This document shows, piece by piece, positions 26,254 through 44,659 of a stretch of 64,000 nucleotides of DNA. Where the stretch lies: assembly GCF_002797445.1 (NCBI RefSeq), contig NZ_PGEP01000001.1:867001-931000 (forward strand). Reading direction: 5' to 3'. The stretch's first letter is position 1. Each line of letters opens with the position of its first letter. Made by a program: the position numbers and the translations under genes. Under the pieces are notes generated by a model. That model did not search any database. It saw nothing but the letters and a program-made list of their open reading frames with translations, and was not told where the DNA came from. The DNA comes from Acidovorax sp. 69. GTDB taxonomy: Bacteria > Pseudomonadota > Gammaproteobacteria > Burkholderiales > Burkholderiaceae_C.

Positions 26254-26296
26254 TGATTGATGAAATTTAAATTCAAATTTATACATAAATCAATCA
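26254..26296. promoter_or_regulatory. AT-rich inverted repeat between lrp and glmS
   Basis: TGATTGAT and ATCAATCA form perfect 8-bp arms around a 27-nt spacer made of AAATTT-type tracts. AT-rich, widely spaced sites suit Lrp-type octamers. Both divergent promoters probably lie here. Confidence 0.5.
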
Positions 26297-28305: not shown

Positions 28306-28599
28306 TGGGCGAGGAGCAAATTGTGCGCAGTGATCTGACGAGGATAGTTTCGGAAAACGGCTCGGCGCAATGAGCGACGAGGGCGTCACCGGGCGTCACC
28401 GGGCGCCACAGGGGCTACGGCGAGCGCTCTGAGCCCCCTATCGACAGGCCGTATCTCATCTCTGTTCCAAAGGGTGTTTCTCTTGTCCTCGTGCGATCTC
28501 AGGAAACGCAGAAGGGCTTTGAGCGGTGCCTGATGTTGAGCGCGCCGTCAAAAGTTTGCTGGCCTCAAAAAAAAATATCCATGACTCAGGCTCCCGCGA
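28306..28599. other. gene-free stretch with a short tandem repeat
   Basis: About 290 bp after glmS without a convincing gene. A tandem duplication GGGCGTCACC occurs at about 28382..28402. No hairpin terminator was evident. It marks the change from core genes to the catabolic cluster. Confidence 0.4.
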
Positions 28600-28992
28600 T
28601 CATGTGATGCTCATCTCAAGCGGTGTGGTCTGGAACGCAATTTGCCGCCATGGGCCGCCGTCCTCTTGCGTCCATACCTGCAGCACGCGCGAGTCGATGC
28701 GCACGGTGCCGGTGCCGTTCTTGCGCACGGCTACCAGCAATTGGCGGCCGGTCATCACGGCGCAGGTGCCCAGCACCTGCACATGCAGCTCAGACCGGTC
28801 GATCACCTGGTAGTCGACATGCGTGCCGCCGGAGCGGAAATAGCTGTCGTAGTCGTCGGTCTGCCCCTTGGCATGCACATGGGTGAGGCCGGGGTGCAGG
28901 ATCTCGCGCAGGCGCGCAAAGTCGCCACGTTTCATGGCGTCGCAGCGCTGGGCTTCGAGGTCCAGCAGCAGGGATTCGGTGTGGGTGGTCAT
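28600..28992 (-). CDS. NTF2-like / SnoaL-fold protein (DUF4440-like)
   Basis: The 130-residue protein fits the NTF2-like cone fold: N-terminal helices (LLDLEAQRCDAMKRGDFARL), REILHPGLTHVHAKGQTDDY, and a beta-sheet ending VRIDSRVLQVWTQED. Such small proteins are ketosteroid-isomerase-like enzymes or accessory binding proteins. No specific activity can be read. It is the last gene of a minus-strand unit below a Bug protein and the FAD monooxygenase. Confidence 0.75.
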   Translation of the reverse strand: MTTHTESLLLDLEAQRCDAMKRGDFARLREILHPGLTHVHAKGQTDDYDSYFRSGGTHVDYQVIDRSELHVQVLGTCAVMTGRQLLVAVRKNGTGTVRIDSRVLQVWTQEDGGPWRQIAFQTTPLEMSIT

Positions 28993-29030
28993 GGGGTGTG
29001 GAGTGAAGCAGGGTAAAAACAGATGTGCGC

Positions 29031-30014
29031 TCAGTCGAGCTGGATGCCGGTGCTGGCCACCAGGCCGCGCCAGCGGTCCTGGTCCTGCTGCACCAGCCGC
29101 GCCAGCGCAGCGCCATCCTCGTAGCGGGGCACCACCTCCAGCCGTTTGGCGGCGGCGAGCATCTCGGGTGACGCCATGGCGCGGCGCACCTCGCTGCCCA
29201 GGCGGGTGGTGGTGGCGGCCGCTACCTTGGCGGATGCGAACAGCCCATACCACTCCACGAGCTGAAGGTTGGGGTGGCCTGCCTCGGCGAAGGTGGGTAC
29301 GTCGGGCAAGCTGGCCAGCCGCTGCGGGCTGGTCACGGCCAGGATGCGGATGCGTCCCGCGCGGTGGTACTCCAGCATGGTGGGCAGTGGGTTGAAGGTG
29401 CAGGCCACCTGGCCGCCCATCAGGTCCTGCAGCCCGGGCACCACGCCGCGGTAGGGCACATGGACCAGGGGCGCGCCCAGCTCACGGCCCATCATGGTGC
29501 CCAGAAAGTGCGGGCCGCTGCCGGGGCCGGGTGTGGCGTAGGTCGTGGCCGAGGGGTTGGCCCTGGCCCAGGCCATGAAGGCGGCCACGCTGGTGTGGGG
29601 CGACGTGCCGTTCACGGCCAGCGCAAAGGAGTGGTCGCACACGCAGGCCACGGGCACGAAGTCGCGCTGCGTGTCGTACATCGGCTTCTTGTACAACTGG
29701 GGCACCAGCGTCATCACCGATGAGGGCGTCAGCAGCAGGCTGCCACCGTCGGGTATCGCCAGGCGCACGGCATCGGCGGCCAACTGACCGGATGCACCGG
29801 TCTTGTTCTCCACCACGTAGCTGGCGCTGGCGTCGGCCAGTTGCTGTGCCAGCGCGCGGCCCAGGCTGTCCGCCGTGCCCCCGGCAGGGAAGCCCACGAA
29901 GAGCTTGCGCATGCCGGCTGGGGCCTGTGGCCATGCCGGGCGGGCGATGGTGGCGGCGGCCATGGCTGCGGTGGCGGCCAGAAGGCCGCGCCGGGAATTG
30001 AGTGGGATCGGCAT
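29031..30014 (-). CDS. Bug/TctC-family tripartite tricarboxylate transporter solute-binding protein
   Basis: The 327-residue protein has a Tat-like signal (NSRRGLLAATAAMAAATIARP) and a TctC fold with FPAGGTADSLGRALAQQL. Further family segments are VENKTGASGQLAADAV, HVPYRGVVPGLQDLMGGQVA and AVTSPQRLASLPDVPTFAE. It should bind a carboxylate in the periplasm. No TctA/TctB membrane partner is in the window. Its position beside the monooxygenase suggests it captures the cluster's substrate. Confidence 0.93.
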   Translation of the reverse strand: MPIPLNSRRGLLAATAAMAAATIARPAWPQAPAGMRKLFVGFPAGGTADSLGRALAQQLADASASYVVENKTGASGQLAADAVRLAIPDGGSLLLTPSSVMTLVPQLYKKPMYDTQRDFVPVACVCDHSFALAVNGTSPHTSVAAFMAWARANPSATTYATPGPGSGPHFLGTMMGRELGAPLVHVPYRGVVPGLQDLMGGQVACTFNPLPTMLEYHRAGRIRILAVTSPQRLASLPDVPTFAEAGHPNLQLVEWYGLFASAKVAAATTTRLGSEVRRAMASPEMLAAAKRLEVVPRYEDGAALARLVQQDQDRWRGLVASTGIQLD

Positions 30015-30103
30015 GCTGGAGTCTCCGTTGTGTGAGGGGGACACGCTGGCGCCTGGTGGCACGCCGTGTGCGACGCCACCAGTCGTTGCGGGGTGTGAAC
30101 ACG

Positions 30104-31702
30104 TCAGTGCAGTGTGGCGGGCTGCCCTGCCAGGTGCTCGCAGGTGCGCTGCAGCAGGTCGGTGGTCTGCGCCGCCCCCTGCGCAACGCCGTAGACGATG
30201 TGGTCGGGTCGCACCAGGGCTGCGCTGCATCCGTGCTGGCCGAACCAGCGCGCAAGGATGCCGTCGGCCTCATGCAATGCCTGCACGCCGGCCACCGCGC
30301 GCGCGGTGGTGTCGATGCACGCCACCTGCGCCTGCAAGCGCTGCAGCGCGTCGATCCATTGCACCAACTGTTCTGCCGAGGGCGCATCGCGCAGGACCAG
30401 TACGAAACCGTGCCCCAGCAGGTCGTCCATCATTAGTTCATGGCCTGCCGTGCCGGATTGACAGACCGGCTGCGGGAACGGTGTTCCCATCGGTGCTTCA
30501 TCGCGGTCGATGAGGCCATGGTGCACCCCGGGCAACAGGCTTTGGCGCAGCTGCATCCGCACCTGGTGGCCCTGCTGGGCGCGCAGGTGCTCGTCGCGCT
30601 CGCGGGCACGGGCCGGGTCGCGCTCGCAGATGATCTGCCCCAGGCGCTTGACGGTGGCGGTGATCGCCTCCACCTGCGGGCCGCGCTCGGTGCCGTAGCT
30701 GTCCAGCAATTCCTCACCCGCATGGCCCTTGAGCACCCAGTCGAGCTTCCACGCCAGGTTGGCGGCATCGCGCAGGCCCTGGCACATGCCCTGGGCCAGA
30801 AAGGGCGGCATCTGGTGGGCGCTGTCGCCCGCCAGCAGCACCGGGCCCTGGCGCCACTGCTCCAGCACCACGGCGTGGAAGCGGTAGGTGGCGGCGCGCC
30901 AGATGGTGGCCTCCCCGGGGGCAATCCATGGCTCCAGCAGTTGCCAGATGGCGTCGGGCGGCATCTCGCGCTGCTCGGCCTCGTGCGGCAGCAGCAAAAA
31001 CTCCCAGCGCCGGTGCGTGCCCGGCCCGACGACATAGGTGCAGGGCCGTGCCGGGTTGCAGTACTGGATGTTGGTGTCGGGCAGCCGGGCCAGCACGGAT
31101 TCGTTCACATGCATGTCCACCACGATCCAGGGTTCGTCGAAGTCCAGGCTCTTGAGGCGCAGGCCCAGGCGCTTGCGGGCAGGGCTGGTGCCGCCGTCGC
31201 AGGCCACCACATAGCGCGCATGCACTTCGCGCGGACTGCCGCCGGCTGCCTGCACCGTGAGCGCCGCGCCGCCATGCGCCTCCTGGACATCGGTGACCTC
31301 GTGGCCCAGATGCACCTGCACGTTGGGCAGTGCGCCCACTGCCGCACGCAGAGCGGTCTCCAGCGCCGGCTGGTTGAAGGTATACGACGGTGCCCAGGCC
31401 AGCGGGTAGGGCGCAGGCCCCATGTCGAAATGCTGGATGGGCTGGCCGTCTGCGCCCCGGTAGATGGTGGGGCGGTAGGGCGTGATGTGCGCCGCCAGCG
31501 CGCCGGCAATGCCGATCTGCTGGAAGGTGCGCATGGCCTCATGGTCCAGCGCGAAGGCGCGGGGCAGGGGGTAGATCTGCTCGGACTTGTCAAAGACCGC
31601 CACGCGGCACCCGCGCTGCCCCAGCAGGGCGGCCAGGGATGCGCCCACGGGCCCGAAGCCGATGATGGCGACGTCTACAGAAGAGGGGGTGTGTCTGGTC
31701 AT
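30104..31702 (-). CDS. FAD-dependent aromatic monooxygenase (MhpA-like)
   Basis: The 532-residue class A flavoprotein hydroxylase has the dinucleotide motif VAIIGFGPVGASLAALLG and the DG motif VVACDGGTSPARKRLG. The GD motif is LLAGDSAHQMPPFLAQGMCQ. A C-terminal thioredoxin-like domain brings it to MhpA size. MhpA hydroxylates 3-(3-hydroxyphenyl)propionate; the substrate here is unknown. It is divergent from an MDR gene across a control region with strong palindromes. Confidence 0.92.
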   Translation of the reverse strand: MTRHTPSSVDVAIIGFGPVGASLAALLGQRGCRVAVFDKSEQIYPLPRAFALDHEAMRTFQQIGIAGALAAHITPYRPTIYRGADGQPIQHFDMGPAPYPLAWAPSYTFNQPALETALRAAVGALPNVQVHLGHEVTDVQEAHGGAALTVQAAGGSPREVHARYVVACDGGTSPARKRLGLRLKSLDFDEPWIVVDMHVNESVLARLPDTNIQYCNPARPCTYVVGPGTHRRWEFLLLPHEAEQREMPPDAIWQLLEPWIAPGEATIWRAATYRFHAVVLEQWRQGPVLLAGDSAHQMPPFLAQGMCQGLRDAANLAWKLDWVLKGHAGEELLDSYGTERGPQVEAITATVKRLGQIICERDPARARERDEHLRAQQGHQVRMQLRQSLLPGVHHGLIDRDEAPMGTPFPQPVCQSGTAGHELMMDDLLGHGFVLVLRDAPSAEQLVQWIDALQRLQAQVACIDTTARAVAGVQALHEADGILARWFGQHGCSAALVRPDHIVYGVAQGAAQTTDLLQRTCEHLAGQPATLH

Positions 31703-31710
31703 GGTGTTTT

Positions 31711-31757
31711 TAATGCAATAAATGTGAATTGTGCATAAAAAAATAAAATGTGCATTA
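31711..31757. promoter_or_regulatory. GntR-type operator region, site 1
   Basis: TAATGCA (31711..31717) and TGCATTA (31751..31757) are inverted. TTGTGCATAAAA and AAAATGTGCATTA lie between them. The TGTGCAT/TGCATAAA words recur at the other control points of this cluster. It lies just before the monooxygenase start, on the divergent promoter. Confidence 0.65.
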
Positions 31758-31796
31758 GGGGTTGATCCCGATGCCGGCGTCCGTGCTTCGATCAAA

Positions 31797-31824
31797 AAAT
31801 GCACAAAATTTTATTTGTGCATTT
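31797..31824. promoter_or_regulatory. GntR-type operator, site 2 (perfect palindrome)
   Basis: AAATGCACAAA and TTTGTGCATTT are perfect 11-bp arms with a 6-bp spacer, 15 bp before the MDR gene start. It is the clearest operator of the cluster. Confidence 0.75.
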
Positions 31825-31838
31825 AACAAGGAGACGAC

Positions 31839-32948
31839 ATGTCGATGATGAAAGCGGCCCGCCTGCACCAGGTCGGCGCCCCCATGGCGATCGAGCAATT
31901 GCCCATCCCCCAGCCAGCGGCCAACGACGTGCAGGTGCGTGTCAGGGCCTGCGGCATCGTGCCCAACCTGGGCAACATATTGGCCAACTGGACCACCTGG
32001 TTTCCCGAGCTGCCGCTGCCCCCGCTGCCGGCCGTGTTCGGGCTGGATCCCGCGGGAGAAGTGACGGCAGTAGGCTCCCACGTGCATGCCTGGAAGCCGG
32101 GCGACCGCGTGTACGTGAACCCCAGTCTGTACTGCGGCGGCTGCCGCGCCTGCCGCAACGGCGACCTGATCAACTGCACGCACTATGCGTTCAGCGGCTA
32201 CTTCGGTTTCTCGCAGAACTCGCTCAAGCTCTATGAGAACTACCCCAACGGCGGGCTGGCCGAGTACATGATCGCCCCGCAATACGCGCTGGTGAAGCTG
32301 CCTGACAACGTAGGCTTCAACGAGGCGGCGCGCTTCGGCTACCTGGGCACCATGTACTCTGCCATGCGCAAGGCAGGCGTGGGGCCGGGCAAGAGCGTGC
32401 TCATCAACGGCATCAGCGGCACGCTGGGCATCGGCGGCGCACTGTTCGGGCTGGCCATGGGGGCCACTCGCATCCTGGGCACTGGCCGCAACCAGGAACT
32501 GCTGGACCGCGTCAAGGCGCTCGCGCCCGGCCGCATCGAGGTGTTCTCTAATGCCGATGGCGGCGCCATCGATACCTGGGTGAAGTCGCGCACCGAGGGC
32601 CTGGGGGTCGATGCCTTCTTCGACGCGCTGGGCCCCGGCGCCTCGCACGATGCGCTGCAGCAGGGTGTGCGCGCCCTCAAGCGCGGCGGGCGGGCCTACA
32701 ACATTGGCGCCATTGCTGGCATGGTGGGCATGGACCTGCACACCATGATGGACGAGCAGCAATCCATCGAAGGCTCGGCCTGGTTCACCGCAGGCGAGGG
32801 CCAGGACATTGCGGACATGGCCGAGGCGGGAACGCTCGACCTGTCGGTCTTCGAGCATGTGTGCTATCCGCTGGACCGTATCAACGAGGCGATCTCGGGC
32901 ATTGCGGGGCGCAATGGCGGGTTCAGTAATTTCGTCATCAACCCCTGA
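31839..32948 (+). CDS. MDR-family alcohol dehydrogenase, atypical zinc site
   Basis: The 369-residue protein has the structural zinc ligands Cys99, Cys102, Cys105 and Cys113 (YCGGCRACRNGDLINC). Its Rossmann motif is NGISGTLGIGGALFGLAMGA. The usual catalytic GHE is GLD at residues 68-70, and the later catalytic cysteine position reads FGYLG. Cys38 remains. It may therefore not be a classical zinc alcohol dehydrogenase. An AAGGAG site precedes the start. It is followed closely by the cupin gene. Confidence 0.85.
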   Translation: MSMMKAARLHQVGAPMAIEQLPIPQPAANDVQVRVRACGIVPNLGNILANWTTWFPELPLPPLPAVFGLDPAGEVTAVGSHVHAWKPGDRVYVNPSLYCGGCRACRNGDLINCTHYAFSGYFGFSQNSLKLYENYPNGGLAEYMIAPQYALVKLPDNVGFNEAARFGYLGTMYSAMRKAGVGPGKSVLINGISGTLGIGGALFGLAMGATRILGTGRNQELLDRVKALAPGRIEVFSNADGGAIDTWVKSRTEGLGVDAFFDALGPGASHDALQQGVRALKRGGRAYNIGAIAGMVGMDLHTMMDEQQSIEGSAWFTAGEGQDIADMAEAGTLDLSVFEHVCYPLDRINEAISGIAGRNGGFSNFVINP

Positions 32949-32960
32949 GAGGTGTCCACC

Positions 32961-33503
32961 ATGCAAATCAGGCGAATCGTCGCGGGGGTCGGTGCCAACG
33001 GCCGCTCGCAGGTGTTCACGGACGGCGTGGCGCCGCGTGCCGTGGAGTTCGAGAGCGCACAGGGCTTTGCCGCTGCCCTGCTGTGGGCCACCTCGGCCGG
33101 CGAGGTGCTGGGCCAGGGGGCTGTGGCCGACCGCACGGGGCAGACCGGTTTCGTGCCTGCAGCGGGCGAGACGCTGCTGATGTTCGTCACCTTCCCGCCG
33201 GACGCGGTGATGATGCGCGCGGATTTCGACGGTGCGGCCTTTGGTGCGGAGTTTGCGCAGAAGGTGCCGGGTCTGGCCGAGCGATTCGAGCAGGACCACC
33301 CGGGCATGCACACCACCGAGAGCATCGACTACGACGTGGTGCTGGAGGGCGAGATCATGCTGGAGCTGGACGACGGCGCTCAGGTGCTGCTGCGCCGGCA
33401 CGACGTGGCGGTGCAGCACGGCAACCGGCACGCCTGGCGCAACCACACCGACCAGCCCGCCACCATGCTGTTCGTGCTGATGGGGGCGCGGCGGGCAGGT
33501 TGA
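32961..33503 (+). CDS. cupin-domain protein
   Basis: The 180-residue protein has a C-terminal cupin at about residues 100-175: HTTESIDYDVVLEGEIMLEL, then RHDVAVQHGNRHAWRNHTDQ. The N-terminal half contains a second, weaker beta domain. I chose ATG 32961 because AGAGGTG is placed correctly for it. It begins 12 bp after the dehydrogenase stop, so the two are an operon. A metal-dependent activity is possible, but no substrate can be named. Confidence 0.85.
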   Translation: MQIRRIVAGVGANGRSQVFTDGVAPRAVEFESAQGFAAALLWATSAGEVLGQGAVADRTGQTGFVPAAGETLLMFVTFPPDAVMMRADFDGAAFGAEFAQKVPGLAERFEQDHPGMHTTESIDYDVVLEGEIMLELDDGAQVLLRRHDVAVQHGNRHAWRNHTDQPATMLFVLMGARRAG

Positions 33504-33546
33504 TTGCCATGACGGGGCTTGCAGGGGCGGCAGGCCCCTGCGTGCA

Positions 33547-34134
33547 TCACGCCTGCTGGCGCGCGGCCTGGAGCCAGCGGATCTCGCTGAGCAGGTCCAC
33601 CAGGCCGGCCTGGATGAAGCCCAGGGTCGGCTCGTCCACCAGGAGGCCGTCCTGGATGCGGCTGGCCACGCCTGCGATGGCGATATGCTGGCGAACCAGC
33701 GGCCGGGCCAGCGTGGCGGCCAGGGCATCGCGGATCTGGGCCTGCGCGCGCACGCCGCCGGCCGTGCCGGGCGATGCGGTCATGACCAGCACCGGCTTGC
33801 CCTTGAGCGGCGAGGCGAAGCCCGGGCGCGATGCCCAGTCGATGGCGTTCTTGAGCACGCCGGGGATGCCGTAGTTGTACTCGGGCGAGCAGATCACCAG
33901 GCCGTCCGCAGCCGCGATGTCAGCCTTGAGCTGCGCGACCGCGGCCGGCGGGCTGTCGCCATCGAGGTCGGCGTTGTACATGGGCACGTCGTCCAGCGGA
34001 AACAACTCCAGCGTGGCTGTGGGTGGCAGCAGCGGTGTGAGGCTGCGCAGCACGGCCGTGCAGTGCGATGCGCGGCGGATGCTGCCCGATATGGCAACGA
34101 GGCGGGTGGGGGCGGCGTTCGGGTTGGCGGTCAC
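33547..34134 (-). CDS. NAD(P)H-dependent FMN reductase
   Basis: The 195-residue flavodoxin-like protein has the FMN phosphate loop AISGSIRRASHCTAVLR and the family signature ICSPEYNYGIPGVLKNAIDW. It reduces free FMN or quinones with NAD(P)H. It could protect against quinones from ring hydroxylation or supply reduced flavin. It is divergent from the GntR gene over the 34166 palindrome. Confidence 0.93.
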   Translation of the reverse strand: MTANPNAAPTRLVAISGSIRRASHCTAVLRSLTPLLPPTATLELFPLDDVPMYNADLDGDSPPAAVAQLKADIAAADGLVICSPEYNYGIPGVLKNAIDWASRPGFASPLKGKPVLVMTASPGTAGGVRAQAQIRDALAATLARPLVRQHIAIAGVASRIQDGLLVDEPTLGFIQAGLVDLLSEIRWLQAARQQA

Positions 34135-34165
34135 TGGGGTTTGCTCCTTCTTTCAATTGTTTTAG

Positions 34166-34177
34166 TTTATGCATAAA
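34166..34177. promoter_or_regulatory. GntR operator at its own start
   Basis: TTTATGCATAAA is a perfect 12-bp palindrome that overlaps the first ATG of the GntR gene (34169). It lies between divergent gntR and FMN reductase genes, which suggests autorepression. Confidence 0.7.
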
Positions 34178-34885
34178 ATTCAAAACATGTACAAAAAAGA
34201 AACGCCCACGCGCACACCGCCCCTGGTTGACCAGGCGTTTGCACAACTGCGCCACGATGTGCTCAGCGGTACCTATGGTGCCGGTGCCAAGCTCAAGCTC
34301 GACGAGCTGCAGACGGCGTATGGCTTTTCCAGCAGCCCGCTGCGCGAGGCCCTGAGCCGCCTGGCCCAGGAGGGCCTGATCCGGGCCGACGAGCGGCGCG
34401 GCTTTCGGGTGGCCGCCATTTCGGAGGAAGACCTGGCCGACATCACCCGCATGCGCGTGATGCTGGACGTGCAGGCGCTGCGCGAATCCATCGCCCATGG
34501 CGATGATGCGTGGGAGGCCTCTGTGGTGGGTGCCTACCACCGGCTTGAAAAAATGGAGGGCCGCCTGGGCGATGGGCCGGTCATCCTGGACAACGATTGG
34601 ACCGAACTGCACACCGCCTTCCATACCGCGCTGATCTCCGCCAGCCCGTCGGAGCGCCTGCGCACCTGGAGCGCCAGCCTGTTCGACCAGGCCGAGCGCT
34701 ACCGCCGCTACTCGGCCCGCTTTCGCAAGACCTCGCGGCGCAAGTCGAACGAGCACCGCAAGCTCATGGACGCCACGCTGCGCCGCGATGCGGACACCGC
34801 CTGCGCGCTGCTTGAAGAGCACATCCTGAGCACCCAGCGCAATGTGATGGCGGTGCTGGCCCAGGTCGAGCAGCAGGAGGGCTGA
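34169..34885 (+). CDS. GntR-family regulator, FCD (FadR) subfamily
   Basis: The 238-residue protein has a GntR wHTH at about residues 15-75 (LRHDVLSGTYGAGAKLKLDE, then SSSPLREALSRLAQEGLIRA). A helical FCD effector domain follows, with metal-ligand-like residues in TELHTAFHTALISA and NEHRKLMDATL. The start is uncertain: ATG 34169 lies inside the operator palindrome, and ATG 34187 would drop six residues. Neither has a clear ribosome-binding site. It is the evident local regulator of the 28.6-39.4 kb cluster. Confidence 0.93.
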   Translation: MHKIQNMYKKETPTRTPPLVDQAFAQLRHDVLSGTYGAGAKLKLDELQTAYGFSSSPLREALSRLAQEGLIRADERRGFRVAAISEEDLADITRMRVMLDVQALRESIAHGDDAWEASVVGAYHRLEKMEGRLGDGPVILDNDWTELHTAFHTALISASPSERLRTWSASLFDQAERYRRYSARFRKTSRRKSNEHRKLMDATLRRDADTACALLEEHILSTQRNVMAVLAQVEQQEG

Positions 34886-35315
34886 ACCTGCAGCCAGGGC
34901 TGAAAGGCTCCTGGCTGTCCCAGCATCCAACTGACCGGTAGCGGGCTGCACGCACCGCCTACATGCTGGCGGCCATCGCGGCCCCGCGCATCCCTTTCAG
35001 CCTTTCTCTTCGCGCACCCCCAGCGCATCTGCACCCACGCAGCCCAGGCGAAACACCGCTGCGGGCTTTCCCCTGCCTGCCTGGCGCACGCGGGGTCGGG
35101 TGCCGGCCACCAGTAACTTCCCCCCTGTTGATTACTTGAGGCGCCGCCGCTGGCAGGCTCTTTCGTGCCTCTTCAGTTTTGTGCTTGGTGTAAACCACTA
35201 TGCATTTACAATGTTTTATGCATAAAAATAACTTCATGCACCAATTCGTGCGGCTGGAAAAAGTCACTCCGGGTCGCCGTTCTTTCCACCTCTCCCATCC
35301 CTTTGAAGGAAACCC
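34886..35315. other. intergenic region upstream of the FAH operon
   Basis: About 430 bp with no convincing gene. The last 120 bp carry GntR-type sites (35199..35227). The first 300 bp are GC-rich and featureless to me. Confidence 0.4.
35199..35227. promoter_or_regulatory. GntR operator of the FAH operon
   Basis: TTTTATGCATAAAA (35214..35227) is a perfect 14-bp palindrome, preceded by a TATGCATTTA half-copy at 35199. It has the same core as 34166 and lies 89 bp before the FAH-family gene. Confidence 0.72.
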
Positions 35316-36176
35316 ATGAAACTGATGTCCTACTCGATCGCCGGCCGTGAGACCTGGGGCGTCGTCGTCGGCGACGGCGTGGCCGAGCTGGCCGCGCGCA
35401 CTGGCCATGCCACTCTGGCTGACTTCATTGGCAGCCCCGACTTCGCGCGGCGCGACGCGCTGGTGGCGGGGCTGGGGGCTGACGCGAAGCTGGCCGACGT
35501 GGTCTATCTGCCAGTGATCCCGCGCCCCGAAAAAATCGTCTGCGCCGTGCGCAACTACATGGACCACCACCAGGAGGTGCTGGCCGCTGGCATGCACCGC
35601 GAGCTGTCCGAGCAGCCACCGATCTTTTTGCGCGTGTGGCGCTCGCAGACCCCGCACCAGGGCCCCATCGTGCGCCCGCATGTGTCGGAGTCGCTGGACT
35701 GGGAGGGCGAGCTGGCCGTGGTCATCGGCAAGGAAGGGCGCGACATTGCCGAGGCCGATGCCTGGGCGCACATTGCCGGCTACAGCTGCTACAACGATGC
35801 CAGCGTGCGCGAATGGCAGTTCCATGCCAAGCAGATCGCGTCGGGCAAGAATTTCGAGTCCACCGGCGCCTTCGGCCCGTGGATGGTGACCGCCGACGAG
35901 ATCGCTCCGGGCCGCGAACTCAAGCTGGAGACGCGGCTCAACGGTGCCGTGGTGCAGTCCAGCCACACGGGTCACATGATTTTCTCGATCCCGCGCCTCA
36001 TCGCCTACGCCTCGACCATCTTCACGCTGGTCCCCGGCGACGTGGTCATCACCGGCACCCCGGCCGGTGTGGGCTGGAGCAAGAAGCCACCGCAGTTCAT
36101 GAAGCCCGGCGATGTGGTGGAGGTAGAGATCGAAGCCATCGGCCTGCTGCGCAACCCCGTCGTCGCGCAGGGCTGA
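35316..36176 (+). CDS. fumarylacetoacetate hydrolase (FAH) family protein
   Basis: The 286-residue protein has the FAH metal site: RNYMDHHQE, LDWEGELAVVIG, and CYNDASVREWQ. It also has the catalytic lysine region SGKNFESTGAFGPWMV and the TPAGVGWSKKPPQFMKPGD signature. Family members hydrolyse C-C bonds of beta-diketo ring-cleavage products or decarboxylate oxo-acids. It leads an operon with a Bug protein, DUF1185, an MDR and a VOC protein. AAGGAAA precedes the start. Confidence 0.93.
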   Translation: MKLMSYSIAGRETWGVVVGDGVAELAARTGHATLADFIGSPDFARRDALVAGLGADAKLADVVYLPVIPRPEKIVCAVRNYMDHHQEVLAAGMHRELSEQPPIFLRVWRSQTPHQGPIVRPHVSESLDWEGELAVVIGKEGRDIAEADAWAHIAGYSCYNDASVREWQFHAKQIASGKNFESTGAFGPWMVTADEIAPGRELKLETRLNGAVVQSSHTGHMIFSIPRLIAYASTIFTLVPGDVVITGTPAGVGWSKKPPQFMKPGDVVEVEIEAIGLLRNPVVAQG

Positions 36177-36262
36177 GGCCGGGCCTCCCACCCACCCATC
36201 CATCCACCCCACCCGGGCAGAGCGCAGCCCCAAGACGGCCGCCGCCCCTGGAGACAAACAGC

Positions 36263-37234
36263 ATGAACAGAAGACATCTCCTGGCCGCCTGCAGTGCGGC
36301 TGCCGTGGCATGGCCGGCCTTGCCGGCGCTGGCCCAGGCCTACCCGGAGCGGGCCATCAAGCTCTACCAGGGATTTGCCCCCGGCGGCAATGCCGACGCC
36401 ATCGCCCGTGCTGTGGGGCTGGAGATGGGCAAGGCCCTGGGCCAGCCCATGGTGGTGGAGGCGCAGTCCGGTGCCGGCGGCACCATTGCCGCCACCACGG
36501 TGGCCCGTGCCAAGCCCGATGGCTACACCCTGCTGCTGGCCACCGGGGGCCATGCCGTGGCGGGGGCGCTGTACAACACGCTGCCGTACAAGTCGGTGGC
36601 CGATTTCGAGATGGTCTCCACGGTCACCTACTTCCCCTTTCTGGTGGTGGTCAACACCAACTCCAAGGTGCAGGGGCTGCGCGAGGTGATCGCCAGCGCG
36701 CAGGCCGCGCCCGGCACGGTGGCCTATGGCACGGCGGGGGTGGGCTCCACCCACCACCTGGCGGGCGAGCTGCTGGCCAAGCTGGCCCGTGTGAACCTGC
36801 TGCACGTGCCCTACCGGGGCGATGCTGCAGCGCTCACCGCCTTGCTGGCGGGGGATGTTCCCTTCATCATCGCGCCACCCACGGCGGTGATGTCCAACAT
36901 ACAGGCCGGCAAGCTGCGCGCCATTGCCACCACCGGCCCGCAGCGCTGGCCGGGCCTGCCCAGTGTGCCTACGGTGGCAGAGCAGGGCGTGGCGGGCTAC
37001 GACGTGCGCTCCTGGGCGGGCCTGATGGCGCCGGCCGGCACCCCGCGCGCCGTGGTGGAGCGGCTGAACGCCGAGGCCCTGCGCGCGCTGCAGGCGCCGG
37101 CCGTGCGCCAGCGGTTGGAGGACATGGGGGGCGAGGCGCGCGGCAGCACGCCCGACGAGATGAAGGCCATGGTCAGCCATGAGCTGGAAAAATGGCAGCA
37201 GGTCGTGGCCGATGCCAAGATCCCGAAACAATGA
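36263..37234 (+). CDS. Bug/TctC-family solute-binding protein
   Basis: The 323-residue protein has a signal peptide (MNRRHLLAACSAAAVAWPAL, then PALAQA). TctC segments are FAPGGNADAIARAVGLEM, HVPYRGDAAALTALLAGDVP and GPQRWPGLPSVPTVAE. It is a periplasmic carboxylate receptor without a permease in the window. It lies inside the FAH operon, so it probably delivers the substrate of this pathway. An in-frame upstream extension is not a credible start, since it would remove the signal peptide from the N-terminus. Confidence 0.93.
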   Translation: MNRRHLLAACSAAAVAWPALPALAQAYPERAIKLYQGFAPGGNADAIARAVGLEMGKALGQPMVVEAQSGAGGTIAATTVARAKPDGYTLLLATGGHAVAGALYNTLPYKSVADFEMVSTVTYFPFLVVVNTNSKVQGLREVIASAQAAPGTVAYGTAGVGSTHHLAGELLAKLARVNLLHVPYRGDAAALTALLAGDVPFIIAPPTAVMSNIQAGKLRAIATTGPQRWPGLPSVPTVAEQGVAGYDVRSWAGLMAPAGTPRAVVERLNAEALRALQAPAVRQRLEDMGGEARGSTPDEMKAMVSHELEKWQQVVADAKIPKQ

Positions 37235-37256
37235 ATTCACCGAAAGACTTTTCCGC

Positions 37257-37835
37257 ATGACCTTGATCGCCATTCGCAAACGCAGCCTCAGCATCGAAAC
37301 CATCTACCACGAGGGCGGCCCGCCGGCAGACCAGCCGCTGCGCGTGGCCGCCGCCTGCGCGGTGATTCGCAACCCCTATGCGGGCCGCTACGAGCCCGAT
37401 CTGCTGCCCTTCATGGCCGAGCTGCGCAGCCTGGGCACCCTGCTGGCCGAGGAACTGGTGGCCACGCTGGGCAAGGAGAACGTGCAGGCCTACAGCAAGG
37501 CCGCCATCGTCGGCGTCAACGGCGAGCTGGAGCACGGTGCCGTGTGGCATGAGGCCGGCGGCTGGGCCATGCGCCAGGTGCTGGGCGAGCCCAAGGCCAT
37601 CGTGCCGGCGGCCAAGGCCGTGGCGGCCACGGGCTACCGGCTGATGGTGCCGCTGCACTACATCCATGCGGCCTACGTGCGCAGCCATTTCAACAGCACC
37701 GAGGTGGGCATCCAGGACGCGCCGCGCCCCGACGAAATCCTGTTCGCCCTGGTGATGGCCGACGGCGGGCGCATCCACTCGCGCCTGGGCGGTCTCACGC
37801 GCGAGCAGGTTGCCGTGCACGACGGGCAGCGCTGA
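37257..37835 (+). CDS. DUF1185 (amino acid synthesis) family protein
   Basis: The 192-residue protein resembles the DUF1185 group: IETIYHEGGPPADQPLRVAA, NPYAGRYEPDLLPFMAELR, GELEHGAVWHEAGGWAMR, and the closing MADGGRIHSRLGGL. The 'amino acid synthesis' label has no secure biochemical basis that I know of. It starts 22 bp after the Bug gene and is followed after 2 bp by the MDR gene. It could be a ring-opening or hydrolytic step. Confidence 0.8.
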   Translation: MTLIAIRKRSLSIETIYHEGGPPADQPLRVAAACAVIRNPYAGRYEPDLLPFMAELRSLGTLLAEELVATLGKENVQAYSKAAIVGVNGELEHGAVWHEAGGWAMRQVLGEPKAIVPAAKAVAATGYRLMVPLHYIHAAYVRSHFNSTEVGIQDAPRPDEILFALVMADGGRIHSRLGGLTREQVAVHDGQR

Positions 37836-37837
37836 CC

Positions 37838-38851
37838 ATGCAGGCCCCTGACATGACGACGATGAAGGCCGTGCAACTGCAGGTCACCGGTGGCCCCGAG
37901 GTGCTGGCGCTGGTCGACCTGCCCGTGCCCCAGCCCGGCCCAGGCCAGGTGCGGGTGCAGGCCCACGCCATTGGCGCAGGCGGGCCGGATGTGCTGATCC
38001 GCAACGGTACCTACAAATGGATGCCGCCGCTGCCGGCCGTGCCCGGCAATGAGCTGGCCGGCGTGGTCGAGGCCGTGGGCCCGGGCGTGGCGCGCCTGGC
38101 CGTGGGCGACCGCGTGCTGGTCAGCGCGCGCGAGCTGCCCCAGCGCGGCGGCTGCTATGTGCAGTACATCTGCGTGGACGAGGCCGTGCCCTTCGTGCTG
38201 CCCGCATCCATCGCCTTCGAGGACGCGGTGAGCCTGGGCAACTTCCAGCTCGCGCTGGCGCTGCTGGCCAGCAACGGCAACCTGCCGGCGCAGGCCATCC
38301 TGGTGCCGGGTGCTGCCGGCGGCGTGGCCACCGCGCTGGCGCAGGTGGCCCGGGCGCGCGACCTGCGGGTGATCGGCACCGCGTCCACGCCCGAGAAGCG
38401 CGCCTTTGCGCTGGAGAACGGGGTGAGCGACCTGGTCGACGGCGATGTGCAGGCCCTGCCGCAGCGGGTGATGGAGCTCACCGGCGGGCGGGGCGTGGAC
38501 ATGGCGTTCGACCATCTGGGCGCGGGGCTGTTCATTGCCTGCCTGCGCTCGCTGGCGCCCTCGGGCATGGCGGTGTCGTACAACATCCTGGCCGGCCCGC
38601 CGTCGAACGATGTGTTCGACGAACTGCGCAAGCTGCTGGCCAAGAGCCTGGCCATCCGCACCTTCTCCATCCACGCGGTGGATGCCGACATCGCGCAGCG
38701 CCGCGGCCTGATGGAGCAGGCCATCGCACTCATGGCTACCGGCCAGGTGCGCGCACCTCGCGCCATGCGCATGCCACTGGCGCAGGCGCGCCAGGCCCAT
38801 GAGCTGCTGGACAGCGGTGGCACGCTGGGCAAGCTCGTCCTGATCCCCTGA
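37838..38851 (+). CDS. zinc-binding dehydrogenase / quinone oxidoreductase family (MDR)
   Basis: The 337-residue protein follows the quinone oxidoreductase pattern: VPGNELAGVVEAVGPGVARL, VGDRVLV, then the Rossmann segment LVPGAAGGVATALAQVARAR. AFDHLGAGLF lies near the C-terminal half. There are no structural zinc cysteines. It would reduce a quinone or an alpha,beta-unsaturated carbonyl with NADPH. ATG 37838 begins 2 bp after the DUF1185 stop; ATG 37853 is an alternative. Confidence 0.9.
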   Translation: MQAPDMTTMKAVQLQVTGGPEVLALVDLPVPQPGPGQVRVQAHAIGAGGPDVLIRNGTYKWMPPLPAVPGNELAGVVEAVGPGVARLAVGDRVLVSARELPQRGGCYVQYICVDEAVPFVLPASIAFEDAVSLGNFQLALALLASNGNLPAQAILVPGAAGGVATALAQVARARDLRVIGTASTPEKRAFALENGVSDLVDGDVQALPQRVMELTGGRGVDMAFDHLGAGLFIACLRSLAPSGMAVSYNILAGPPSNDVFDELRKLLAKSLAIRTFSIHAVDADIAQRRGLMEQAIALMATGQVRAPRAMRMPLAQARQAHELLDSGGTLGKLVLIP

Positions 38852-38871
38852 ATCCCGTGGAGCCCGCCACC

Positions 38872-39435
38872 ATGACCCAAGCCTATGCCGCCAACCTGTC
38901 GCACTGCGGCATCTTCTGCCGCGACCTGGAGGTGATGAAAGCCTTCTACACCGGCGTGTTCGACATGCAGGAGACCGACCGGGGCGAGGGTGTCACCTTC
39001 CGTTTCGAGATCGTTTTCCTCAGCGGGCGCGAGGACCAGCACCACCAGCTGGTGCTGGCCGGCGGGCGCGGCGCGGATGCGCCCAGCACGGTGATGCAGC
39101 TGTCCTTCAAGGTCAAGACCATCGACCACCTGCGCGAGGCGCGCCGCCGCGCCCTGGCCATGGGCGCGACCAGGATGCGCGGGCTCAACCATGGCAACGC
39201 GATCTCCATCTACTGCATGGACCCCGAAGACAACACCGTGGAGGTGTACCTGGACACGCCCTGGTACGTGAGCCAGCCCCACGGCGACCCGCTGGACCTG
39301 GACCTGGACGACGAGGCCATCTGGGCCCAGACCGAGCGCGTGGTGCGCACCGATCCAAGCTTCATGCCGGTGTCGGAATGGGCGGCACGCTTCGCATTGC
39401 GCAGCGAGGCGTTGAAGACATCCAACCTTAGTTGA
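38872..39435 (+). CDS. VOC-superfamily protein, extradiol dioxygenase-like
   Basis: The 187-residue protein has two paired VOC modules. Putative metal ligands are His11 (NLSHCGIFCRDLEVM), His57 or His58 (QHHQLVLAGG) and Glu124 (NTVEVYLDTPW). This is the 2-His-1-Glu set of extradiol dioxygenases. With the upstream monooxygenase it would give a hydroxylate-then-cleave route. ATG 38872 has GTGGAG upstream; a GTG at 38857 is less likely. It closes the FAH operon. Confidence 0.88.
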   Translation: MTQAYAANLSHCGIFCRDLEVMKAFYTGVFDMQETDRGEGVTFRFEIVFLSGREDQHHQLVLAGGRGADAPSTVMQLSFKVKTIDHLREARRRALAMGATRMRGLNHGNAISIYCMDPEDNTVEVYLDTPWYVSQPHGDPLDLDLDDEAIWAQTERVVRTDPSFMPVSEWAARFALRSEALKTSNLS

Positions 39436-39755
39436 GGTGGACAGGAGCACCGTCGGCTTTGATCGCGGATCCACGGACGTCTGACGCTTGCCACGACTCG
39501 CAGGTAATTGCAAGGGCATGGACACGCCAATAACACGGGCTTCCCAAGGGGAGCCCCGTTTGCTCTGGTCTCAGTGCGGGTCAAAAAACACTCCCCATGG
39601 CAGCAGCACCCGCACATGCGAAGTGCCACCACCATGGGAAGGCCCGCAACTGGCTCAATGACATGGCGCCGATTTCGCCAAGCTGATTGAGTTCATGCAA
39701 GCCTTGATCAGGGAATCGCAGGACACGAAGATATTGCTGAATCTGGATAACCTAA
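39436..39755. pseudogene. gene remnant interrupted by the IS5-type element
   Basis: No intact gene is present. Just before the insertion an open stretch encodes FAKLIEFMQALIRESQDTKI, then LLNLDNL. If the IS and one CTAR copy are removed, it continues as APF and a stop. An upstream frame (NWLNDMAP) joins only with an indel. The family is not recognised. The strand is plus for the remnant, but its 5' boundary cannot be set. Confidence 0.4.
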
Positions 39756-39890: not shown

Positions 39891-40876
39891 CTACGCCCCC
39901 TGCGCGCGCACCTGTCCCAGGACTTCCAATAGCTTTTTCCTAGCCATCCACAGATTGCCCAGCCCAAACAGCGTGACGAGCTGTGCCGTGTTCTTCTTGA
40001 GCCCCCGGTAGCGCACCTTCACGTACCCGAACTGTTGCTTGATTACCCTGAACGGGTGCTCAACCCTGGCCCGGATGCTGGCCTTGGTTCGTTCCAGTTG
40101 ATCGATCAGAGCCTCAAGAGGGCTGTCTTTGTCCAAAGCCCGGCGCAATCCCGGCCGCATGGCCACATGCCAGCGCACGTTCTTGTTGGCATCTGGCCGC
40201 TTGTCCACCCCTTGGTAGCCCGCATCTCCAAAGGCATCAGTTTCTTGCCCGTGCAGCAGACTGTTTGCTTCGATCACGTCGTTCATATTGCCACTGGTGC
40301 CTCGCACGCTGTGCACCAGCCCCGAGTCTGCATCCACCCCAATGTGGGCCTTCATACCGAAGTACCACTGGTTGCCCTTCTTGCTCTGGTGCATCTCGGG
40401 GTCGCGCTCGCCGCTTTGGTTCTTGGTGGAGCTGGGCGCGGCAATCAGCGTGGCATCCACCACCGTGCCCGCTTTGAGTTGCAGCACTTTGGCTTGCAGC
40501 AGTGCATTGACCGTGGCCAGAATCTGATCGGCCAGCTTGTGGCGCTCCAGCAGATGTCTAAAGCGCAGGATGCTCGATTCACTGGGGATGTGTTCGTCCC
40601 AGTGGGACAAACCTGCAAAGTCCCGAAAGGCTGGCACGTCGTGCAGCGCTTCCTCCATGGCTGGGTCGCTGAGCTTGAACCAATGCCGCATGAAGTGGTA
40701 CGCAGCAGGGTCTGCACTGCAAAGGGCTGCTGGCCCCTGCGCCCACCTTCGGGTGTGTAGGGCTCTATCAGCGAGACCAGTTCAGCCCAGGGCACCACGA
40801 GTTCCATGGCATCAAGGAATTCACGCTTGCGGGTGCGCTTGGTGGTGTTGCTCAGGCCCAAACTGCTTTGCTTCAT
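39891..40876 (-). pseudogene. IS5-family transposase, one-base frameshift
   Basis: The first part starts at 40876 (MKQSSLGLSNTTKRTRKREF) and contains EPYTPEGGRRGQQPFAVQTLLR. The frame then breaks at about 40700. The second part resumes as HFMRHWFKLSDPAMEEALHD and runs to 39891. DDE positions are visible in VDATLIAAPSS, DAGYQGV and ARVEHPFR, and the DPEMHQSKKGNQWYFGMKAH block is diagnostic of IS5. One added base would give 328 residues. The element is probably inactive unless the break is a sequencing slip. Confidence 0.9.
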
Positions 40877-41026: not shown

Positions 41027-41509
41027 CTACATTTTGCGCACCAGCGACTGGCGGATTGCTTCGGCCTTGGTTGTGGTGAATACACCGCTGGCCAGAAGGT
41101 CCAAGATGGAGGTGACGCGGCCGCGCGACCCCCAGCTTCCTTCGTCGATGACTCGGAAGTTAACCCACCAGGTGGGAGATGGCGCGTTCAGGCCGCATGC
41201 CGAGGTCATGGCTGAGAGGGTGTTTTCGATGACTTGCTTGCGCACCAGTGGCGACCAATCTCCCTCCATGACGCAGATGTCGATCGTGGCCAAATCGGGC
41301 ATTGGGTGTTGATCGCTCAGCAAGACACCGGCGATGGCGACCTCGCTGGGCGCGCGTTCGACGAAGTGCACCTGGAACCCGACACGGGCTGCCACCGCCA
41401 GTTGCCCCACCTCCGGGATCAGCACCGCATCGGTAAGTGTTTGTGCCAGCTGGCGGCGTTGCTCGACTGATAGACGGCCTTTGGGTGTCGCGATGGTAAT
41501 GATGGTCAT
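41027..41509 (-). CDS. tautomerase-superfamily-like protein lacking Pro1
   Basis: The 160-residue protein looks like a 4-oxalocrotonate tautomerase-type fold in two parts: MTIITIATPKGRLSVEQRRQ, LAQTLTDAVL, and a second half around SPLVRKQVIENTLSAMTSA. Canonical tautomerases use an N-terminal Pro exposed after Met removal; here residue 2 is Thr. The activity is therefore uncertain. It is divergent from a TetR gene with a palindrome between them. Confidence 0.6.
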   Translation of the reverse strand: MTIITIATPKGRLSVEQRRQLAQTLTDAVLIPEVGQLAVAARVGFQVHFVERAPSEVAIAGVLLSDQHPMPDLATIDICVMEGDWSPLVRKQVIENTLSAMTSACGLNAPSPTWWVNFRVIDEGSWGSRGRVTSILDLLASGVFTTTKAEAIRQSLVRKM

Positions 41510-41603
41510 GGTTTTCCCTCTTTTTGGGAGTGGTCTGCTGAATGTGGGCGGCGCAGGGATCCTCGCCCTCAGCGCGCAGATGCTGCGTTTGTCCTAAACT
41601 AGC

Positions 41604-41619
41604 TATGTCGTTTGACATA
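41604..41619. promoter_or_regulatory. TetR operator, site 1
   Basis: TATGTC and GACATA are perfect 6-bp arms around GTTT, between the tautomerase-like gene and the TetR gene. The neighbouring TCCTAAACTA (41592..41601) is also repeated at the second site. Confidence 0.7.
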
Positions 41620-41631
41620 TAAGCACCAGGA

Positions 41632-42261
41632 ATGTTGTCCTCTACCAAGGAAAAGATGATTGCCGGCGCGGCTGACTTGATCAGTCGCCAAGGCGTAGCG
41701 GCCACCAGCTTGCGAGACGTTGTTCACCACACAGGCACCCCTCGTGGATCGCTTGCACACCACTTCCCGGGCGGAAAGCAACAGATGCTGGAAGAGGCTG
41801 TTGCGTATGCGGACCACGCGGTTGCAGGACCACTCGCGGATTTACTCCACACGCACGGTCCCGTTGAAGGCTTACTAGCATTCATCGCCTGGTGGCAACA
41901 TGTCCTAGAAGTGTCGGATTTCGAAGCAGGGTGTCCTGTCTTGGCTGTTGCCATAGAGCAAGGCAGCGTGATGGATACGTTGGGAGATGAGGAGGTTGGT
42001 GCGCGCGAACGCCTGCGCCTTCTGGTGCATGGTGCATTCAGCAGCTGGCAGGGTATCTTTGCGGGTTCTTTGGTTAAAGCAGGCGTGGAAGATGAACGAG
42101 CCAAAAGCCTGGCAGCACTGGTGGTCGCGTCTGTGGAGGGAACTGTTGCCATGTGCCGCGCGGCGCGCAGCCGAGAGCCGCTGGACTCTGTGACCCGGGA
42201 GCTACATGCCATTCTGAAACTTACCTTGCAGCAGGTGCCCACTTCTGAAAAAAATGAATGA
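41632..42261 (+). CDS. TetR/AcrR-family regulator
   Basis: The 209-residue protein has an N-terminal HTH (MIAGAADLISRQGVAATSLR, then TGTPRGSLAHHFPGGKQQML). Its C-terminal domain resembles the LmrA/YxaF type (FEAGCPVLAVAIEQG). It lies between two minus-strand genes that share its probable operator, so it likely represses both and itself. The ATG lies 12 bp downstream of the palindrome. Confidence 0.92.
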   Translation: MLSSTKEKMIAGAADLISRQGVAATSLRDVVHHTGTPRGSLAHHFPGGKQQMLEEAVAYADHAVAGPLADLLHTHGPVEGLLAFIAWWQHVLEVSDFEAGCPVLAVAIEQGSVMDTLGDEEVGARERLRLLVHGAFSSWQGIFAGSLVKAGVEDERAKSLAALVVASVEGTVAMCRAARSREPLDSVTRELHAILKLTLQQVPTSEKNE

Positions 42262-42294
42262 GATACGGCTGACACCGTCGCTTGGGCGCGCATT

Positions 42295-43212
42295 TCAGGA
42301 TGCAGTTTCTGGGCGGTTGTGAGTGCGGCCGGATCGTGCCAGCCATCCCAACGCTTCATCCCAGAATACCTGGGAGGATGCTCTGAAATAGCCCATGTGT
42401 CCGATGCCTCCGGAGGGCGCTGTCGGGTGGATGTCGCTGGTAGACAGCGGCGCATTCCGATAGCCGCTCATGAAAGCGTCGCGCGAACTCGCCGTAGCCC
42501 AGCGGTCGTCGACCGCGTTGACCGCCATGATCGGAACCCGCACCCGTGCATATCGATCCTCGATACCCAACATCGCTGGGTCATCGAAGAAATAGCGCGG
42601 ATACCGGCACCAGTGCCGCCATTGCCAGAAGACGTTGCGTGGAAGATCCTCGCCCATGCCCAGCATTCTCCAAGGACAGTAGCCCTTCCACCAAGTCAGC
42701 AAGGGGAGCACCAAATGCCACATGGGTAGTACCTTCCACTGCTCCGAGCTTGGCATCCAGCCATGCCACCCTGCGCCAATGCCGAAGCCATAAAAACCGG
42801 CCAGCTTGTCATGGTTTGGGAGCAGCCCCAAAGCGTGGCCTCCATAAGAATGACCGACCATGTAGAGCGGTAGCCCGTCGCCTTGGGACATGTGCTCCAC
42901 CGCGGCGGCAAGGTCGAGCTGGCCCCAGTCCAGCAGCGACATCTCAAAGCCCTTGAGCGATGAAGGACGCGACTTTCCGATGCCCCGGTAATCGAATGTC
43001 AGTGTCTCAAAGCCTCTCTCCGCAGCAAACTCTGCGAACTTGCGGTAGAAGCCTTGCGGCACCGCAGTAGCGCCCGCGACAATCAGTCGTCCTACAGGAC
43101 GCGTGATGGTTGAATATAGGGTGGCGGACAATAAAAACCCATCATCCGCTGTGAGAGCGAAGGAATGCGGCGACGGGCGTGGTGCATCAGTTTGTTGTAT
43201 GTCGTCTGTCAT
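42295..43212 (-). CDS. alpha/beta hydrolase
   Basis: The 305-residue protein has an oxyanion segment, the nucleophile elbow LPLYMVGHSYGGHALGL (Ser in GHSYG), and an acid-bearing strand PIMAVNAVDDRWA. A C-terminal histidine is in GGIGHMGYFR. It would cleave an ester, thioester or similar bond in the cytosol; no signal peptide is visible. Its promoter carries the same palindrome and flanking decamer as the tautomerase-like gene. Confidence 0.88.
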   Translation of the reverse strand: MTDDIQQTDAPRPSPHSFALTADDGFLLSATLYSTITRPVGRLIVAGATAVPQGFYRKFAEFAAERGFETLTFDYRGIGKSRPSSLKGFEMSLLDWGQLDLAAAVEHMSQGDGLPLYMVGHSYGGHALGLLPNHDKLAGFYGFGIGAGWHGWMPSSEQWKVLPMWHLVLPLLTWWKGYCPWRMLGMGEDLPRNVFWQWRHWCRYPRYFFDDPAMLGIEDRYARVRVPIMAVNAVDDRWATASSRDAFMSGYRNAPLSTSDIHPTAPSGGIGHMGYFRASSQVFWDEALGWLARSGRTHNRPETAS

Positions 43213-44563: not shown

Positions 44564-44659
44564 GTCAGTGTCCTTGTGATGATCTCGCTCCAGTCTAGGG
44601 GCTGCGTGGATGCTTGATAAGCTCCACTAGTTTGCACAGGCTGTGCATAATTCTGGACA

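Follow-up and report, generated by a model that had tools for sequence, protein, structure and literature searches.

The hcdABCDEFG cluster of Pseudomonas mandelii 7HK4 is a gene cluster for the degradation of 7-hydroxycoumarin, and the available portions of the two papers on it assign a protein to each gene (PMC6222606, PMC7913881). HcdA is described there as a flavin adenine dinucleotide (FAD) hydroxylase that carries out the ipso-hydroxylation of 3-(2,4-dihydroxyphenyl)propionate, HcdB as an extradiol dioxygenase, HcdC as a 31.2-kDa protein of the FAH family, HcdD as a DUF1185 protein, HcdE as an MDR enzyme that uses NADPH to reduce 7-hydroxycoumarin, HcdF as a cupin whose function was left open by the authors, and HcdG as an FMN reductase. 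The hcdDEFG genes are described as contiguous on one strand in about 3 kb, beside hcdABC, which are also on one strand. This study concerns a cluster of twelve genes at positions 28600-39435 of a 64,000-nucleotide stretch of Acidovorax sp. 69 (contig NZ_PGEP01000001.1, positions 867,001 to 931,000 of the forward strand). This whole stretch is called the window, and coordinates refer to it unless another locus is named.

The original prediction described the cluster as a self-contained, GntR-governed ring-catabolism cluster with no obvious known equivalent. The self-contained ring-catabolism part of that description stands, with an MhpA-type hydroxylase, an extradiol-type VOC protein and a FAH-type hydrolase present, but the lack of an equivalent was not borne out, as hcd matches the cluster family for family (PMC6222606, PMC7913881) and all seven Hcd enzyme families have counterparts in it, the one for HcdB being putative. 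The cluster is probably a mobile, GntR-controlled catabolic unit of the hcd kind in a diverged Comamonadaceae version, and its substrate is most likely a hydroxycoumarin or a close relative. We infer this link to hcd from gene content, gene order, protein sizes and a shared palindrome, by way of Pseudomonas-type loci used as stand-ins for hcd.

Gene content compared with hcd

All twelve genes originally listed, on both strands, were present and in the families named. Pfam and NCBIfam scans covered ten of them, while the Bug pair was assigned by reading and by matches among the loci. The counterpart of HcdA is an MhpA-type FAD hydroxylase of 532 amino acids (aa) and 58.1 kDa (30104-31702, minus strand; PF01494), which scores 504 bits on NF004829, the NCBIfam model of the MhpA subfamily (cut-off 390). 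The counterpart of HcdE is a zinc-type MDR reductase, called MDR1 here (31839-32948, plus strand; ADH_N and ADH_zinc_N), and it is followed by the counterpart of HcdF, a cupin and candidate lactone-opening enzyme (32952-33503, plus strand) with a Cupin_2 score of 26.0 bits, slightly below the cut-off of 27.2. The remaining counterparts are a protein of the NADPH-dependent FMN reductase family for HcdG (33547-34134, minus strand; PF03358, FMN_red, 124.8 bits), a FAH-type hydrolase of 286 aa and 31.0 kDa for HcdC (35316-36176, plus strand; PF01557, 226.9 bits), a DUF1185 protein for HcdD (37257-37835, plus strand; PF06684, also called AA_synth), and, as the putative counterpart of HcdB, a single-domain VOC protein of 192 aa and 21.6 kDa (38857-39435, plus strand; PF00903, Glyoxalase) that is a putative extradiol dioxygenase.

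The stand-in for hcd consisted of 23 Pseudomonas-type loci, three named ones and twenty from 19 further Pseudomonas genomes. The genes for GntR, hydroxylase, VOC, FAH, DUF1185, MDR1 and cupin were all held by 18 of these loci, and over all 23 the cupin was found in 22 and the FMN reductase in 13. In the Pseudomonas-type layout DUF1185-MDR1-cupin stands beside a FAH-VOC-hydroxylase set that runs the other way. Six of these 18 loci (L160, L161, L167-L170) have the DUF1185, MDR1, cupin and FMN reductase genes on one strand in 2.9-3.1 kb, like hcdDEFG. Their content, order and size suggest that these 18 loci are hcd. Computed masses were 57.8-60.4 kDa for the hydroxylases (62 kDa on the gel for HcdA), 30.3-31.0 kDa for the FAH proteins (31.2 kDa reported) and about 40 kDa for the MDR enzymes (about 40 kDa reported). 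When the window proteins were compared with those of the 18 loci, identity was 58-61% for MDR1, 60-66% for DUF1185, 44-47% for the hydroxylase, 47-52% for GntR and 38-51% for the cupin, and it was 44-59% for the FMN reductase in the 13 loci that have one.

Conserved residues

In the VOC protein H16, H62/H63, H112, Y119 and E129 were invariant in 69 of 69 rows of the alignment. With the roles that we take these residues to have at the metal site, this pattern would suit an extradiol enzyme whose metal is held by two histidines and one carboxylate. In MDR1 the four structural-zinc cysteines and Arg217 were kept in 107 of 107 rows and Cys38 in 96, while Leu69 and Tyr168 replaced, in all 107 aligned rows, the histidine and the second cysteine that presumably bind the catalytic zinc in alcohol dehydrogenase 1rjw. 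Because two of the three catalytic-zinc ligands are lost and Arg217 is kept throughout, an NADPH ene-reductase is a better fit for MDR1 than a zinc alcohol dehydrogenase.

The usual cupin motif carries a second histidine that was missing from the consensus of the cupin family found here; H120, D126 and H160 were kept in 92 of 93 rows, and the structure model of the window cupin had a mean predicted local distance difference test (pLDDT) value of 95. The DUF1185 protein matched the solved structure of its relative BB2672 (3byq) over its full length with 345 bits. Elsewhere in the same genome there is a tandem pair of DUF1185 genes (C1:4843582-4844798; L001, L002, L053) whose products are 43-46% identical to that of the window.

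A shared palindrome and the GntR regulator

The GntR/FCD regulator of 238 aa is encoded at 34169-34885 on the plus strand (PF00392 and PF07729). A putative operator, TTTATGCATAAA, lies at 34166-34177 and overlaps the predicted gntR start codon, and another copy lies upstream of fah at 35215-35226. The divergent promoter gap between the hydroxylase and MDR1 genes (31703-31838) holds TGCAYAAA half-sites at 31732, 31800 and 31814 as well as an 11-bp perfect inverted repeat with arms at 31797-31807 and 31814-31824. In the window the motif was counted 7 times against 0.86 expected, and five of the seven were inside the three gaps, though this count is not independent because the motif was picked after inspecting those gaps.

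The search for the palindrome in other loci is the better test, even though many of these loci are close kin. With at most one mismatch, TTTATGCATAAA was found in 35 of the 54 loci that have a GntR match of at least 45% and in only 4 of the 46 others, against 0.015 expected per locus; those four comprise one of the 10 loci with a GntR match of 35-45% and three of the 36 with less or none. Exact copies were found in 14, 0 and 0 loci of these three groups, respectively. Of the three loci in the last group, L075 and L092 have the site before MDR1 though no GntR match was found in them, and in L175 the site stands at no matched gene. Among the 18 full Pseudomonas-type loci, 13 carry the palindrome, either between FAH and DUF1185 or before gntR. 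For another pattern, TGTGCATTT, a search allowing one mismatch gave 8 sites where 14.7 were expected; only the TGCAYAAAA / TTTATGCATAAA form was enriched. A one-mismatch TTTATGCATAAA site at 26278, before glmS and outside the cluster, was taken for chance. The claim that the cluster is GntR-governed is supported by the palindrome shared between gntR and the region before fah and by the half-sites between the hydroxylase and MDR1 genes, and GntR would bind the TTTATGCATAAA-type sites as its putative operators.

Gene grouping, borders and lineages

Loci were collected by a search with an alignment of 30 MDR1 relatives, from which 267 were confirmed and the best 80, all named, were kept. Co-occurrence was counted within 10 kb of MDR1, and some of the loci end at contig ends. 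The cupin was near MDR1 in 71 of the 80 loci, FAH in 62, the hydroxylase in 53, GntR in 49, DUF1185 in 40 and VOC in 38; rarer partners were the second Bug protein (18), a second MDR enzyme (MDR2; 16), the NTF2-like protein (15), the FMN reductase (14) and the first Bug protein (5). All seven core genes (hydroxylase, VOC, FAH, DUF1185, MDR1, cupin and GntR) were together in 34 loci, where the genes are clustered rather than scattered, and only parts of the set were together in others. When 20 other window proteins were used as controls, each was found in 0-20 of the same 80 loci, and 13 of them in none. These counts show that the grouping of the genes exceeds chance. In two relatives (P0098, P0111; 574-575 aa) the cupin and MDR1 are naturally fused, with the cupin part first.

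The closest named relatives for this cluster are those of Acidovorax radicis N35 (L054) and A. soli. Similarity to A. radicis N35 covers 28598-28979 and 30114-39680 of the window, the first Bug gene being absent there, and similarity to A. soli runs in pieces from 28599 to 39417. No blastn match to the flanks of the cluster was found at 1e-20 in the 21 kb covered for each of these two genomes. Within the genus, 47 genomes were tallied and three of them, counting the source genome, carried MDR1; all or nearly all candidates were scored for this count. In the family it was found in at least 2 of 299 genomes; this tally and another of 20 of 298 are lower bounds, as no more than six candidates were scored per genome. 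Given the sharp borders against A. radicis and A. soli and these low counts for MDR1, the cluster looks like an accessory unit whose surroundings differ between close relatives. A DDE transposase gene is located at 39891-40691, directly beyond the right border. Past it, 41027-45553 holds a weak tautomerase match, a TetR regulator, an alpha/beta hydrolase, an aldo/keto reductase and a LysR regulator.

The tree of the hydroxylases put most of them in three lineages: one of Pseudomonas, Burkholderia and Duganella (32 rows), the lineage of the window with Acidovorax, Variovorax, Pseudorhodoferax and Pigmentiphaga (19 rows), and a third with Ideonella, Aquabacterium, Ramlibacter, Nocardia and others (7 rows). 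Outside all three stand Bradyrhizobium and a second locus of the source genome, L047 (C1:2714000-2733500), which holds a VOC protein, a FAD hydroxylase, an IclR regulator, a FAH protein, a Bug protein and an FMN reductase. The VOC, hydroxylase and FAH proteins of this second locus are 40-47% identical to those of the window, and in the FAH tree it falls on the window's side, though weakly and on a long branch. In the trees of VOC and FAH, the window kind takes in those of the third hydroxylase lineage and excludes those of Pseudomonas. Hydroxylase-like matches interrupted by stop codons were seen in two Variovorax genomes, with one internal stop in the first match (G805:C15:366919-368466) and two in the second (G803:C30:128823-130388).

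Other genes of the cluster

Four genes of the window cluster are additional to the families of hcd. An NTF2-like (DUF4440) protein of 130 aa is encoded at 28600-28992 (minus strand; PF14534, 62 bits). The Bug genes, periplasmic binding proteins assigned by reading of their open reading frames (ORFs), are two in number, which corrects the original prediction: Bug1 of 327 aa (29031-30014, minus strand) and Bug2 of 323 aa (36263-37234, plus strand). The NTF2-like and Bug1 genes are shorter than their longest ORFs, with likely starts near 28992 and 30014. MDR2, which family scans place among PIG3-like MDR proteins of the quinone-oxidoreductase type, has 337 aa (37838-38851, plus strand), and no match to it was found in the 23 Pseudomonas-type loci. 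The cluster of Variovorax sp. MHTC-1 includes an ABC transporter of the branched-chain type (L059:14278-17579) and a Bug2 match of 69%, and no Bug1 match was found there; with the transporter in and Bug1 out, genes for uptake may be interchangeable.

Proposed route

The starting compound would be an unsaturated lactone of the benzopyranone type, either a hydroxycoumarin or something close to one. It would be taken up, perhaps aided by the Bug proteins, and MDR1 would reduce its C3-C4 double bond with NADPH. The lactone would then open to a hydroxyphenylpropionate, either spontaneously or through the cupin, the DUF1185 protein or both. The FAD hydroxylase would add a hydroxyl group to give a trihydroxyphenylpropionate, whose ring the VOC protein would cleave, and the FAH-type protein would convert the cleavage product to succinate and an acid of the 2-hydroxy-4-oxopentenoate type. 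Where the labile trihydroxy intermediate is oxidised to quinones, the FMN reductase and MDR2 may bring these back. GntR would sit on the TTTATGCATAAA-type sites until an inducer from the pathway releases it.

If the hcd-kind reading is true, a pathway described from one Pseudomonas strain extends to the Comamonadaceae as a trait that can move and that carries a single regulatory signature. It also offers candidate roles for the cupin and for the DUF1185 family, which has a solved structure and is labelled as amino-acid synthesis, and the conserved palindrome provides a handle for finding the regulon in other genomes. A literature search on coumarins in Acidovorax or Variovorax listed four titles, with nothing on this cluster, and no Hcd, Ifc or Fde label appeared among the names of the best 120 matches listed per protein search. 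The annotation of L075 and of L178/L182 did not settle the substrate.

Alternative explanations

Several observations weigh against the assignment to hcd. Identity between the window and the Pseudomonas-type loci is only 35-40% for VOC and 45-48% for FAH, and the window hydroxylase, VOC, FAH and MDR1 all fall in tree lineages apart from Pseudomonas, the MDR1 proteins being about 60% identical. The gene order is unlike hcd as well: DUF1185 is far from MDR1-cupin, and the arrangement of hcdDEFG beside hcdABC is absent from the window, where only MDR1 and cupin adjoin and the FMN reductase and hydroxylase genes are on the opposite strand. When the proteins of one Pseudomonas locus (L132) were compared with the Acidovorax sp. 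69 genome, its hydroxylase matched the window gene first (476 bits against 289 for the next), but its FAH and VOC preferred the second locus, L047, over the window (284 against 244 bits and 138 against 114 bits). The MDR1-cupin pair also occurs elsewhere next to other genes, without VOC or DUF1185, and a GntR-VOC-FAH-Bug-DUF1185 unit occurs without hydroxylase, MDR1 and cupin in L034 (7535-12425), where MDR2 joins it, and in L035 (6655-10480). No HcdA label was found among the best 120 matches listed in one of the protein searches. Class II enzymes of the type I extradiol group are generally two-domain proteins, and if HcdB has two domains the 192-aa VOC protein of the window is not its like. 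The available portion of PMC6222606 does place HcdB in class II of the type I extradiol enzymes, and it lists HcdA, HcdB and HcdC as 62, 31 and 20 kDa, which clashes with its own 31.2 kDa for HcdC. HcdB was taken here as the 20-kDa band, which is a reading of that list; the VOC proteins, at 21-23 kDa computed, fit the band if it is HcdB.

Since the FAH and VOC of L132 prefer the second locus and the GntR-VOC-FAH-Bug-DUF1185 unit stands alone in L034 and L035, the window cluster is a composite of parts that also occur separately. In a wider reading, possible although we lean against it, MDR1 with the adjacent cupin, at times fused into a single protein, is a portable front end (reductase plus lactonase) that acts on cyclic enones and lactones and has been attached, in bacteria ranging from Comamonadaceae to Actinomycetota, to several ring-cleavage systems as back ends. 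On this view the window would carry a second hydroxycoumarin-type pathway that was assembled separately and has another hydroxylation position or substrate, and the DUF1185 and cupin families would gain a home. Seven Streptomyces loci (L098, L101, L108, L115, L118, L124, L129) have MDR1 relatives with a cupin about 5 kb off and a distant FAH (32-33%), and none of the seven had GntR, VOC or DUF1185 matches or half-sites; perhaps they carry another back end on the same front enzymes. A sharper division, in which two independent units for different substrates merely adjoin, reductase-cupin-hydroxylase on one side and GntR-VOC-FAH-MDR2-Bug-DUF1185 on the other, is quite unlikely. The lone units of L034 and L035, with no ring hydroxylase among the seven neighbouring ORFs scanned, would suit it, as would the preference of the L132 VOC and FAH for the other Acidovorax locus, but in A. 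radicis, in A. soli and in 13 of 14 Variovorax loci the VOC gene is accompanied by the hydroxylase gene, operator-like sites are present on both units, and both end together at the sharp borders.

The substrate could also be of another kind. If the cluster served an A-ring pathway for flavonoids or isoflavones, of the kind known as ifc in Variovorax V35 and fde in Herbaspirillum, its hydroxylase would act on C8 of the intact benzopyranone, the VOC protein would open ring A and the cupin would open the pyranone. This was set below the hcd reading and is unlikely, although the available portion of the ifc report describes a Comamonadaceae cluster with a FAD hydroxylase (IfcA), a VOC protein (IfcB) and cupins that act on the pyranone (IfcD1 and IfcD2), and names Acidovorax A79 from soybean root among the daidzein degraders (PMC11069340). 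Several window-type Variovorax loci have the matched order hydroxylase, MDR1, cupin, gntR, VOC, which puts hydroxylase and VOC four genes apart, as the V35 locus numbers 59390 and 59430 suggest (PMC11069340, from the same portion). On the other hand, the window cluster contains a single cupin and lacks an alpha/beta hydrolase (the one at 42295-43212 is beyond its border), a further cupin match was not found in the regions of about 20 kb flanking the cluster on each side in three Variovorax genomes, and the portion of PMC11069340 available mentions neither a DUF1185 gene nor an MDR reductase for ifc; beside the Variovorax clusters an alpha/beta hydrolase was searched for in four conserved ORFs only. 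A search for ifc at further hydroxylase loci, in Variovorax and three more genera, turned up thirteen hydroxylase-bearing stretches, eleven with a FAH match and three that had a VOC match above 40%; none was identifiable as ifc. Very improbable is the view that MDR1 is an ordinary alcohol dehydrogenase in a cluster for an aromatic alcohol or a heteroaromatic acid unrelated to coumarins. Among the best 120 matches listed, named MDR1 relatives are mostly labelled alcohol dehydrogenase by their source, but Leu69 and Tyr168 stand in place of catalytic-zinc ligands in all 107 relatives, and the pairing of MDR1 with the cupin and the two natural fusions argue against it.

Comparison with known systems

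The mhp cluster of Escherichia coli K-12 shares with the window a class A FAD hydroxylase, acting on a hydroxyphenylpropionate in mhp and proposed to do so in the window, whereas its annotated mhpB, mhpC, mhpD and mhpR, in the families we take them to belong to, have no same-family counterpart in the window cluster. An mhp-like cluster was rejected, as the families differ and E. coli MhpA falls far outside the hydroxylase tree (end branch 4.05, with a long-branch warning); the window hydroxylase groups with the study loci and not with E. coli MhpA. The fde naringenin cluster of Herbaspirillum seropedicae has in common with the window a FAD hydroxylase and a VOC enzyme, which in fde act on ring A, but its substrate is a flavanone, a comparison made by description from the available portions of the reports (PMC11069340, PMC11303751). 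By the description in the available portion of PMC11069340, ifc of Variovorax sp. V35 shares a FAD hydroxylase, a VOC protein and a cupin in a Comamonadaceae cluster, but differs in having an alpha/beta hydrolase and a pair of IfcD cupins, which share 65% identity. The nearest correspondence is with hcd. The window has MDR2, two Bug proteins and an NTF2-like protein in addition, and the alignment with this characterised pathway holds for the gene families but does not extend to the exact gene order or to close identity of VOC and FAH, so that the cluster of Acidovorax sp. 69 remains a variant of the hcd type.

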